Part shown: positions 2,258 to 30,540 of the stretch, one piece after another | Position numbering within the stretch: position 1 is the first letter of the stretch | Layout: each line of letters starts with the position of its first letter | NCBI GenBank assembly: GCA_009781765.1 | Contig: WQVC01000022.1 | Coordinates: 1-34,995 of the forward strand | Source: Defluviitaleaceae bacterium | GTDB taxonomy: Bacteria; Bacillota; Clostridia; Lachnospirales; WQUN01 | Length of the DNA stretch: 34,995 nucleotides | Reading direction: 5' to 3' | Notes under the pieces: model-generated | Database searches by the model: none | The model's input: the letters and a program-made list of their open reading frames with translations, nothing else | Told to the model about the DNA's origin: nothing | Position numbers and translations under genes: made by a program

Positions 2258-3280
2258 ATGATAGTATCAATCCGCCCGAACTCGCCGAAGGAAAAAATCA
2301 ACCATCTAATCAAGTGGCTCGACGATAAAAATTTGATTGTGAAGGAATTTCACGGCAACGACCAATGCGTGTTAGGCTTAATCGGCAACACCAAATGCAT
2401 CGACAAGGATATGCTTAAAAGCCTCGACATTGTGGAATCTGTGTCCGACATGACCGACACGTTTAAAGCAAGTAATCGCAAAATGCATCCCGACGACTCA
2501 ATTTTGCGGCTCGCATCCGGCGAAGGTCCGCTGATTGGCGGCGGGCATTTCGCGTTAATCGCCGGGCCGTGTTCGGTGGAAAGCCGCGAGCAGCTTGTAG
2601 GCATCGCGCGGGATGTAAAAGCCGCCGGCGCGAATTTTTTGCGCGGCGGAGCGTTTAAACCGCGCACATCGCCGTATGATTTTCAGGGCATGGGCAGCGC
2701 GGGGCTGGAGCTTCTTCTCGAAGCCCGTGCCGAAACCGGTCTGCCGATAGTCACCGAGCTTATGTACCTGCACAATTTGGACGAATTTATCGAGAAAAAA
2801 ATCGACGTAATACAAATCGGCGCGAGAAACACTCAAAACTACGACCTCTTAAAGGAACTCGGAAAATCCACTCAAGCCCCTGTTTTGTTAAAGCGCGGGC
2901 TTGCCGGCACAATCAAAGAACTGTTGATGAGCGCGGAATATATAATGGCAAACGGGAACGAGAATGTTATTTTGTGCGAGCGCGGAATCCGCACATACGA
3001 GCAGGATTACGCCCGGAACACATTGGATTTATCCGCCGTGCCGATATTAAAAAACCTGACGCATCTGCCGGTAATTGTTGACCCGTCCCACGCAACCGGG
3101 CGGGCAGACCTCGTTCCGTCCATGACACTCGCGGCAATTGCGGCCGGCGCAGACGGAATTTTGGTCGAAGTTCATAACGACCCGAAAAATGCCCTGTGCG
3201 ACGGCGCGCAATCTCTTACACCGGAGGCATTTGCGGAGCTTTCGGCCAAAATTGACCGTCTGCGGGACGCACTCAGATGA
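2258..3280 (+). CDS. aroF: 3-deoxy-D-arabino-heptulosonate 7-phosphate synthase, type I-beta
   Basis: This enzyme condenses phosphoenolpyruvate with erythrose-4-phosphate in the first step of the shikimate pathway (cytoplasm). The 340-residue product has an N-terminal ferredoxin-like regulatory domain (about 1-70) and a TIM barrel with family motifs GPCSVES (103-109), FKPRTSPY (123-130), IQIGARNTQNY (175-185), LLKRG (200-204), CERGIRTYE (230-238) and VDPSHATGR (254-262). Cys105 and His258 are expected metal ligands. The N-terminal layout is like the Thermotoga enzyme, where this domain mediates aromatic amino acid feedback; there is no fused chorismate mutase. The start has a GAGGAG site. Its TGA overlaps the tyrA start by 4 bp (ATGA), which implies translational coupling. 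Confidence 0.95.
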   Translation: MIVSIRPNSPKEKINHLIKWLDDKNLIVKEFHGNDQCVLGLIGNTKCIDKDMLKSLDIVESVSDMTDTFKASNRKMHPDDSILRLASGEGPLIGGGHFALIAGPCSVESREQLVGIARDVKAAGANFLRGGAFKPRTSPYDFQGMGSAGLELLLEARAETGLPIVTELMYLHNLDEFIEKKIDVIQIGARNTQNYDLLKELGKSTQAPVLLKRGLAGTIKELLMSAEYIMANGNENVILCERGIRTYEQDYARNTLDLSAVPILKNLTHLPVIVDPSHATGRADLVPSMTLAAIAAGADGILVEVHNDPKNALCDGAQSLTPEAFAELSAKIDRLRDALR

Positions 3281-4113
3281 AGCGAGTCGGAATTGTCGGA
3301 CTGGGGCTGATTGGCGGCTCGATTGCCAAGGCGTACAAGCGCACGCCGGGAATTACCGTGCTTGGCGCGGACATCGACCGCTCTATCGTGGAGTTTGCAA
3401 AACTCGCCGAAGCTATCGACGGCGAATTGCACGACGCCGATTTATCATCTTGCGACGTCGTGTTTCTTTCGATTTTCCCGCAAGGGGTCATCGACTGGAT
3501 TGACGCGAAAAAAAATTTTTTGGCAGGAACAACCGTTATCGACTGCGCCGGCACAAAAGGGCGAATTTGCGAAAAAATTTTTCCGGTAGCCGAGGCGCAC
3601 AATTTTACTTTTGTCGGCGGGCATCCTATGGCCGGCTTGCATCGAAGCGGCTTCAAATTCAGCCGCGAGGATTTATTCGACGGCGAGCCGATGGTAATTG
3701 TCCCGCCGGCGCACGACGACATTCGCCTTTTTGATAAAATCAAAACGCTCATTGCGCCGCTCGGTTTCGGGCGCATTTCTGTAACAACCGCCGCCGAACA
3801 CGACGAAATTATCGCGTTTGCATCGCAAATGCCGCACATAATCTCAAACGCCTTTGTAAAAAGCCCCGTCGCGCCGCGTCACAGGGGCTATTCGGCGGGG
3901 AGTTATCGCGATTTAAGCCGCGTTGCCCGCCTCGACCCCGACATGTGGACAGAACTTTTTCTCGAAAACAAGGCGTATCTGCTCGACGAATTTGACACCT
4001 TTATCGCATCCCTGCAAAACTATCGCGCCGCACTCGAAAGCGGCGACGCAAAAAAATTGCGCGAGCTTCTGCACGACGGAAGCCGCATAAAACGGGAAAT
4101 CGACGGCCCTTAG
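3277..4113 (+). CDS. tyrA: Prephenate dehydrogenase
   Basis: It oxidatively decarboxylates prephenate to 4-hydroxyphenylpyruvate on the way to tyrosine. The 278-residue product opens with a Rossmann GxGxxG (residues 8-13), followed by a beta-strand ending in acidic residues, which fits NAD(H) preference. Further family motifs are GGHPMAGLHRSG and DLFDGEPMVIVPP, and an MPHIISNAF segment holds the conserved His of the helical domain. It stops soon after the dimerisation domain, so it lacks the C-terminal ACT domain of B. subtilis TyrA and may not be directly tyrosine-inhibited. It overlaps aroF by 4 bp. Its TAG is followed immediately by the first hairpin of a family A repeat array. Confidence 0.92.
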   Translation: MKRVGIVGLGLIGGSIAKAYKRTPGITVLGADIDRSIVEFAKLAEAIDGELHDADLSSCDVVFLSIFPQGVIDWIDAKKNFLAGTTVIDCAGTKGRICEKIFPVAEAHNFTFVGGHPMAGLHRSGFKFSREDLFDGEPMVIVPPAHDDIRLFDKIKTLIAPLGFGRISVTTAAEHDEIIAFASQMPHIISNAFVKSPVAPRHRGYSAGSYRDLSRVARLDPDMWTELFLENKAYLLDEFDTFIASLQNYRAALESGDAKKLRELLHDGSRIKREIDGP

Positions 4114-4378
4114 CGCGCCAAGCGCGCAGTGGACACCGGGGACAAGACGTCAGCGGCGAAGCATACCCTCGAAGCCGGAGGCGAAGCCCCTTTTCACCGG
4201 GGACAAGACGTAGGCGGCGCGGCATTCCCTCGAAGCCGGAGGCGCGCAGCCCCTTTTCACCGGGGACAGGACGTCAGCGGCGAAGCATACCCTCGAAGCC
4301 GGAGGCGAAGCCCCTTTTCACCGGGGACAAGACGTAGGCGGCGCGGCATTCCCTCGAAGCCGGGGGGCGTTTCGCGCC
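4114..4378 (+). repeat. Family A repeat array, four units, downstream of tyrA
   Basis: The array begins at the tyrA stop with a GCGCGCCAAGCGCGC hairpin, then four units starting at 4134, 4195, 4258 and 4319 (61, 63, 61 and about 60 bp). Each has CACCGGGGACA, a variable middle, and CCCTCGAAGCCGG. Units 1 and 3 differ at one base and units 2 and 4 are almost identical, so the array is a 124-bp dimer duplicated in tandem. Unit lengths are not multiples of three and I see no coding function; an open frame across it has low complexity and no ribosome-binding site. Confidence 0.9.
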
Positions 4379-4389
4379 TTGGCGACAAG

Positions 4390-4550
4390 CGTTAATGCGA
4401 ATCCACAGTTCAAAATAACAGCCCGCCGAAAATGTATTGTGGCGAGCGACCGGTCTTTTTTTCGGATGTTTTTCCCAAAAAAAAGACATCGAGCGAGCCA
4501 TTCACAATGCATCGGCGGGCTGTTATTTCAACAATGGATTCGCATCGTTA
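4390..4550. mobile_element. MITE-like element with terminal inverted repeats and target duplication
   Basis: A 151-bp body (4395-4545) is bounded by perfect 11-bp inverted repeats, ATGCGAATCCA at 4395-4405 and its reverse complement at 4535-4545. It is flanked on both sides by the direct repeat CGTTA (4390-4394 and 4546-4550), as expected for a 5-bp target duplication. The arms continue inward with a perfect 17-bp inverted repeat (4413-4429 with 4512-4528) and an A/T-run pairing (4453-4462 with 4477-4487), so the whole element can fold into one long imperfect hairpin. It encodes no protein. The structure is that of a miniature inverted-repeat transposable element moved by a transposase encoded elsewhere. 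A structured RNA is the alternative. Confidence 0.8.
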
Positions 4551-4623
4551 CATACAGCGAACACCTTCACGGGCTTCTCAAGTGCGTTCGCGATAATTTA
4601 TGAATACAGAGGAAGTGGTTTGC

Positions 4624-5721
4624 GTGAAAACCATAACAGCAGGCTTTCCGTGGTCGTCGGCCGATAACTGCGAAATTTTTATCGAACGCGGTTTGCTCGC
4701 GCATTTTACGCAAATTGCTGAATTTCGCAAAAAATTTTCCGGCGTAAAAAAATTCGCGATTATAACGGACGAAAACGTGTGCCGACTTTATGCGGAGCGC
4801 GTCGCAAACTCGCTTAATGAAGCGGGCTTCGACGTTGTAATACCCTACTTCACCCCCGGCGAGCAGTCCAAAAATATCGACACATTTTTTATGTTGCAAA
4901 ACCAACTTGCCGAAAACGAAATTACCCGCTCCGACGCAATTATCGCTCTCGGCGGCGGCGTGGTCGTCGATTTGGCGGGTTTTGTTGCGGCTACATATCT
5001 GCGGGGCATTCCGTTTGTGCAAATGCCAACAACTCTTCTCGCGATGGTTGACTCGTCGGTGGGCGGAAAAACCGCCATCGACATTCCCGCCGGCAAGAAT
5101 CTCGTCGGCGCGTTTCATCAGCCCGCAATGGTTGTTTGCGACCCCGACACTCTCGGAACTCTCCCCGCCGAAAACTTCGCCGACGGCATGGCGGAAGTCA
5201 TCAAGCACGCCATGATTGAGTGCCGGAGGCCGGAAGCGCGTACCACCTCGGCGTTATTGCATATGCTCAACAGCGAAATTCCGATTTCCGAAAATTCCGG
5301 CATCCTTGCGGACGTCATCGAGGCGAACGTAAAAATCAAGCGCGACATCGTGCAGCGCGACGAGTTCGACACCGGCGAGCGTCAACTTTTAAATTTCGGG
5401 CATACTATCGGTCACGCTGTCGAAAAATTAAGCAGTTTTAAAATTTCGCACGGAAGTGCCGTTGCAATCGGCATGAGCATCATTACAAAATCCGCCGTGC
5501 AAAAAGGTCAATGCGCGCCGGAATGCGCGGAAATTTTGGAAAATCTGCTGCAAAAATATAATCTGCCGACGCACACGGATTTTTCGCCGCAAGAAATTTT
5601 CGAGGCGTCTCTTTCCGACAAAAAACGCACCGGCGGATTTATAATCGAGGTAATTCCGCGTTCGCCGGGCGTGTGCGAACTTGTTAAAATGCCGGTCGGG
5701 GACTTGCTTGATTGGATATAA
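4624..5721 (+). CDS. aroB: 3-dehydroquinate synthase
   Basis: It converts DAHP to 3-dehydroquinate using NAD and a divalent metal. I place the start at GTG 4624 (365 residues) because GAGGAA lies about 10 nt upstream; an in-frame ATG at 4600 has no ribosome-binding site and would add 8 residues. Motifs seen: TPGEQSK (77-83), the NAD-binding GGGVVVDLAG (110-119), PTTLLAMVDSSVGGKTAID (135-153), and likely metal ligands Glu191, His250 (in NFGHTIGH) and His266. Length is normal. It is separated from tyrA by the repeat array and MITE-like element, which may have split a once continuous operon. aroA follows after 19 bp. Confidence 0.93.
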   Translation: MKTITAGFPWSSADNCEIFIERGLLAHFTQIAEFRKKFSGVKKFAIITDENVCRLYAERVANSLNEAGFDVVIPYFTPGEQSKNIDTFFMLQNQLAENEITRSDAIIALGGGVVVDLAGFVAATYLRGIPFVQMPTTLLAMVDSSVGGKTAIDIPAGKNLVGAFHQPAMVVCDPDTLGTLPAENFADGMAEVIKHAMIECRRPEARTTSALLHMLNSEIPISENSGILADVIEANVKIKRDIVQRDEFDTGERQLLNFGHTIGHAVEKLSSFKISHGSAVAIGMSIITKSAVQKGQCAPECAEILENLLQKYNLPTHTDFSPQEIFEASLSDKKRTGGFIIEVIPRSPGVCELVKMPVGDLLDWI

Positions 5722-30348: not shown

Positions 30349-30369
30349 CAACACACAGTAAAATAATTT

Positions 30370-30540
30370 CGCGAGGGGTGCTGCGCAACCGATTTTATAT
30401 CGGCGCGGCTGAGAAATACCCTTTGAACCTGCTCCGGGTAATTCCGGCGAAGGGATGCGTGCGCGGCTTTGTCGCCAAACATCGGGATGAATTGTGTAAT
30501 CCCTTCGAAGTTTTTCGTCCTCGCGGATAATCCGGGAGGT
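30370..30540 (+). promoter_or_regulatory. TPP riboswitch with expression platform
   Basis: Aptamer about 30370-30458 carries the THI-box landmarks in order: GGGGTGC (30375-30381), a short variable stem (CCGAT/ATCGG), GGCTGAGAAATACCC (from 30407), TTTGAACCTG, then GGGTAATTCC and GCGAAGGGA. Downstream, ATCCCTTCG (30499-30507) is a perfect 9-bp complement of CGAAGGGAT (30448-30456), the 3' side of the aptamer, so binding of TPP and this pairing exclude each other. The RBS GGGAGG (30534-30539) lies just beyond. High TPP should lower ThiT production. Confidence 0.93.

Follow-up and report, generated by a model that had tools for sequence, protein, structure and literature searches.

A probable non-autonomous IS982-type MITE between tyrA and aroB, with a hairpin core common to differently ended MITE families

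The element located between the prephenate dehydrogenase gene (tyrA, 3277–4113) and the 3-dehydroquinate synthase gene (aroB, 4600–5721; both confirmed by Pfam) is a MITE, and very probably a non-autonomous one of IS982 type, whose core is shared among MITE families with different ends. It has an insertion history and a matching insertion-sequence family, and the stem of the shared core carries compensatory changes. In the window, the whole stretch of 34,995 nucleotides that was analysed, the body of the element comprises 151 bp (4395–4545), with terminal inverted repeats perfect at 11/11 bp (Table 1). Direct reading of the sequence returned exactly the 11-bp perfect ends, the CGTTA duplication and the coordinates given in a preliminary description of this DNA, made from the sequence alone. 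That description had also held that a 17-bp inverted repeat and a T-run/A-run pair let the body fold end to end, and the fold agrees with it: the T-run and A-run arms (4453–4465 and 4475–4487) are 92% complementary, and the RNA folds end to end with −78.8 kcal/mol vs −37.0 in shuffles (z −11.75; 0/200 shuffles). No ORF of at least 100 aa lies inside the 151 bp and hence no transposase gene, as expected of a MITE. A simple scan gave no terminator-like site at the window hairpin.

Table 1. Parts of the element and the neighbouring module copy in the window
Feature	Position	Strand	Basis
Left copy of the target-site duplication, CGTTA	4390–4394		sequence read directly; family statistics
Left terminal inverted repeat ATGCGAATCCA, IS982-type end	4395–4405	+	end shared with the 975-bp insertion sequence of G029
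Left outer arm of the hairpin (shell A)	4413–4429	+	17-bp perfect inverted repeat with 4512–4528
Conserved directional core hairpin of ~80 bp, common to MITEs with other ends	4432–4512	+	match to model R3 (4423–4518, + strand, 89.2 bits)
Right outer arm of the hairpin	4512–4528	+	pairs with 4413–4429
Right terminal inverted repeat TGGATTCGCAT	4535–4545	-	sequence read directly
Right copy of the target-site duplication, CGTTA	4546–4550		sequence read directly
Module M (GCGAACACC..GTGCGTTCGC), a shortened free-standing copy	4557–4591	+	hairpin module, elsewhere inside the core of longer copies

The element is one of many in its own genome. BLAST retrieved at least 40 copies. A search for the end pattern AYGCGAATCMANNG gave 95 hits, as against 0 for the reversed pattern used as a control. 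These ends bound 53 distinct elements, which range from 26 to 257 bp and are mainly 150–153 bp long. An exact 5-bp duplication flanks 22 of the 53, as compared with 1.2% for flanks mispaired at random, and at least four of the five duplication bases match in 35 of the 53, as compared with 9% for random flank pairs; the further copies with the same ends that the preliminary description had proposed to look for are thus present. The insertion itself can be read at locus L033, where GTATA, the element and GTATAGTGAATC follow one another: the copy has split the TATA end of an element of type B, and the same holds for L066 and L071. The TATA end interrupted in L033 is uninterrupted in many other copies, and copies within the TATA ends of another repeat show TA duplicated. 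Some elements of 33–59 bp contain little beyond the ends (L034, L041, L043, L051, L053, L055), some of them with a perfect 5-bp duplication; they are minimal palindromes that may have moved even so.

An insertion sequence with the same termini, which the preliminary description had also suggested seeking, was found by pattern search of the family in a related genus (G029). It measures 975 bp, carries ATGCGAATCCACGGTTGA at both ends and has one ORF for a DDE transposase of 297 aa that is above the cut-off of Pfam DDE_Tnp_1_3 and reaches 127.8 bits with NCBIfam IS982 (NF033520), for which the cut-off is 130. A homologue in G007, 69% identical to it, scores 137.4 bits and so stands above that cut-off. 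Both genomes are Defluviitaleaceae metagenome assemblies, presumably from termite guts to judge by the isolate names, and all genomes compared here are draft assemblies. Residues D116, D200 and E252, conserved in the transposase alignment, are proposed as the DDE catalytic residues. Relatives in Bacteroidota (Parabacteroides, Flavobacterium and others) have ATGCGAATCAG / ATGCGAATCA ends and make 5-bp duplications, and those of their transposases that were tested gave 107–121 bits against the same cut-off of 130. In Parabacteroides massiliensis an IS982-like element bounded by ATGCGAATCAGCAG ends is present in many copies, with duplications of 5 bp (L123–L133). The own genome contains one truncated transposase copy, reduced to the first 207 residues and with the end ACGCGAATCAAGGG / ACGCGAATCAAGGGTTGAA, and no intact transposase of IS982 type was found in it; a transposase scan of IMG/VR returned one fragment only. 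Terminal inverted repeats, a duplication of fixed length, a short body without a transposase gene, dispersed copies and an autonomous insertion sequence with matching ends, five features by which a MITE is recognised, are present, and the earlier MITE reading is upheld by the dispersed copies, the 5-bp duplications and the full-length insertion sequence.

The interior of the element has a wider distribution than its ends. A covariance model of the window-type copies gave at least 79 matches, all end types together. In the own genome it also picked up another set of elements, at ~100 bits, and in G029 and G011, which represent two other genera, 10 to 14 elements each. The core, ATGCATTGTGG..ACAATGCAT, is found in all of these inside unrelated outer arms and unrelated ends. 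Besides shell A, the own genome has shells B, C, D, E and F, which end in TAGTGAATCAATTTG, TTGCGGTTTGCC, TAGCAGTTTT, TACTGTTTCCG and TAGCGAACGC, respectively, and further shells carry the core in G011 and G029; shells C, D and E are not all independent, because part of their inner arms is shared. Among the 36 elements with T..A ends, 24 have TA on both sides. A core-only model matched 3 of the 295 genomes of the order, with nine congeners devoid of the core and no congener among the matches. Across 323 kb of loci all core matches lay within a palindromic shell except one truncated copy, and no stand-alone core was found there apart from this truncated element. The core-pattern scan of IMG/VR gave no match. 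For the TA-flanked shells no IS630-type transposase was found in the own genome or in G011, and the one of G029 has other ends; end-pattern searches for autonomous TA-type elements returned further short hairpins only. The preliminary description had spoken of a textbook MITE; the term MITE stands, and textbook proved too modest, because the core is shared with differently ended MITEs and has compensatory changes in other genera. A hairpin of 101 bp, module M, is inserted into the core of several shells at a constant position, which is the same core junction in shells A and B and apparently also in C and D (L042, L047, L052, L067, L070, L055, L258, L259, L223, L298).

The histories of core and shell differ: cores group by the genome that carries them, and shells cross genomes. 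Shell D of the own genome matches that of G029 in its ends and along the full length of both outer arms, with 84% identity in the left arm and 94% in the right arm, as compared with 66% for the cores enclosed. Within the own genome most pairs of cores from shells B to F are 91–95% identical, some pairs with F being at 82–88%, and unrelated shells lie at the chance level of about 55%. A tree of the cores keeps the genomes apart with the minimum number of changes. Forcing the shell-D cores into one clade costs 52 log units and is rejected (p-AU 2e-70), and forcing the shell-B cores together costs 32 log units (p 0.001); the fine branching of the tree is unsure because the core alignments are short (77 columns). 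Since cores group by genome and shells are shared across genomes, the simplest account would be that the MITE families of one genome have exchanged or homogenised their cores. The same data might be explained if one core-bearing element per genome had diversified its arms and ends, the likeness of shell D between the two genera being due to a separate transfer of ends. This shell replacement would fit the near identity of cores across all shells of one genome, as well as the motif TAGYGAATCAA common to shell B, the G011 shell and the end motif of shell A, GCGAATCAA. It is nevertheless doubtful, given that shell D is alike between genera in outer arms as well as in ends, and it would itself imply recombination between core and shell.

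The stem pairs covary. In 32 window-type copies 98.5% of cells pair, 11 of the 51 pairs have changes on both sides, and double-change cells number 82 vs 27.7 in shuffles. For the core across shells the corresponding figures are 65 and 19.3, with at most 10 in slid controls. The core keeps an asymmetric GTAA/A loop and, on its 3' side, a bulge of 4 nt; its tandem G·A is swapped as a block for G-C/C-G in 9 of 36 cores. As the arms of a palindrome are identical on opposite strands, G·T and A·C mismatches would be expected in equal number without strand-specific selection. The stem mismatches of families A, B, C and G011, counted only at pairs found by folding both strands without G-U, comprise 47 distinct G·T vs 20 distinct A·C (69 vs 30 cells; p 0.0013, a value that is only indicative because the copies share ancestry). 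This excess speaks for a fold that is retained on one of the two strands, most simply in RNA. A constraint at RNA level on the core is plausible, if still tentative. Quasi-palindrome correction is an established process, and the element could be a purely selfish palindrome, whose arms are corrected by template switching without any selection and whose shared core is an accident of recombination. The compensatory changes, spread alike over shell and core, would agree with such correction, and compensatory changes have also been found in REPIN spacers (PMC3116915). However, correction is strand-neutral and leaves the mismatch bias unexplained, and it should erase non-complementary loops such as GTAA/A, the 3' bulge and the tandem G·A, which are kept across shells and genera, so that this explanation is considered rather unlikely. 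The preliminary description would have taken the same hairpin at syntenic positions across genera, with compensatory changes, as a sign of a conserved RNA. The changes were found, but the copies occupy different, unrelated places with a patchy distribution. The hairpin is thus a mobile element, possibly with a constraint on its structure (RNA) as well.

Several known systems resemble the element in part. MITECca01 and MITECca02 of Cardinium cOegibbosus are IS982-derived MITEs, from ISCca4, and share with it the IS982-type ends without transposase gene, the high copy number in one lineage and a mostly intergenic location, at a length of about 240 bp; they differ in that intact copies of their parent are present alongside them in the genome and in that neither an end-to-end conserved hairpin nor a cross-family core was described for them (PMC9769881). 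The putative parent resembles the IS982 family (NF033520) in transposase profile, DDE domain, length of about 1 kb and inverted-repeat ends. The lineage found here has ATGCGAATC ends, makes 5-bp duplications and scores around the strict cut-off of the IS982 model, and the window element differs from the family in having no gene. REPINs (REP doublets) are likewise non-autonomous hairpins at scattered sites, in which both sides of the stem show compensatory changes, but they are linked to RAYT tyrosine transposases and have REP ends, unlike the DDE-type ends and 5-bp duplications of the window element (PMC3116915). Correia, ERIC, BOX, RUP and SPRITE elements are also short hairpins of intergenic regions, which can be transcribed and can affect mRNA; their ends are unrelated, and the parts of the source consulted describe no core common to differently ended families (PMC10969869).

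In the proposed mechanism the MITE inserted into the tyrA-aroB junction, among other repeats, with a 5-bp duplication, and an IS982-like transposase supplied in trans would act on the ATGCGAATC ends. The outer shell, that is, the ends and outer arms, would set which transposase moves the element. The inner layer is the conserved strand-specific hairpin core, also present in MITE families with unrelated, mostly TA-flanked shells. Cores would be exchanged or homogenised within a genome via recombination or conversion, and their fold would be preserved in a single strand, most probably that of the RNA in read-through transcripts. More speculatively, the core might be a functional RNA or single-strand DNA cassette that unrelated MITE families of a genome hand on to one another and whose fold is preserved by selection on one strand, with transposase-specific shells as carriers of a host-adapted core. 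MITEs are usually viewed as decayed insertion sequences with an unimportant interior. Here the interior is conserved and the ends are exchangeable, across unrelated end types and genera. Were this reading true, the interior would serve the element or the host, and the role of bacterial MITE hairpins would become testable; the count of G·T vs A·C mismatches offers a simple test of RNA-level selection that is usable for any hairpin MITE.

A non-mobile, conserved structured RNA of the tyrA-aroB leader would account for the strong covariation and the strand bias of the mismatches, but it is extremely improbable and was rejected in view of the dozens of dispersed copies with target duplications, of three congeners (G001, G004, G006) in which tyrA and aroB abut without the hairpin, their frames overlapping or touching, and of the restricted distribution of the core in the order. 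A known RNA family was rejected as well, since the hairpin matched no curated covariance model of Rfam. Because the two genes abut in these three congeners, the whole gap 4114–4599 is probably inserted, repeat DNA, which bears out the earlier view of it as an insertion hotspot, at least as a landing place for repeats. The empty site looked for in relatives was thus recovered as congeners devoid of the whole gap, and an exact site with a single CGTTA was not found among them. Next to the MITE, units of ~61 bp (CACCGGGGACAAGACGT..CTCGAAGCCGGAGG) form an array at positions 4114–4380. The genome G002 has similar units upstream of its aroB and at other loci (L031, L032, L195), so that the array represents another dispersed repeat family of the genus. 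Farther along the window, a TPP riboswitch (Rfam RF00059, 66.5 bits) is located at 30364–30472.
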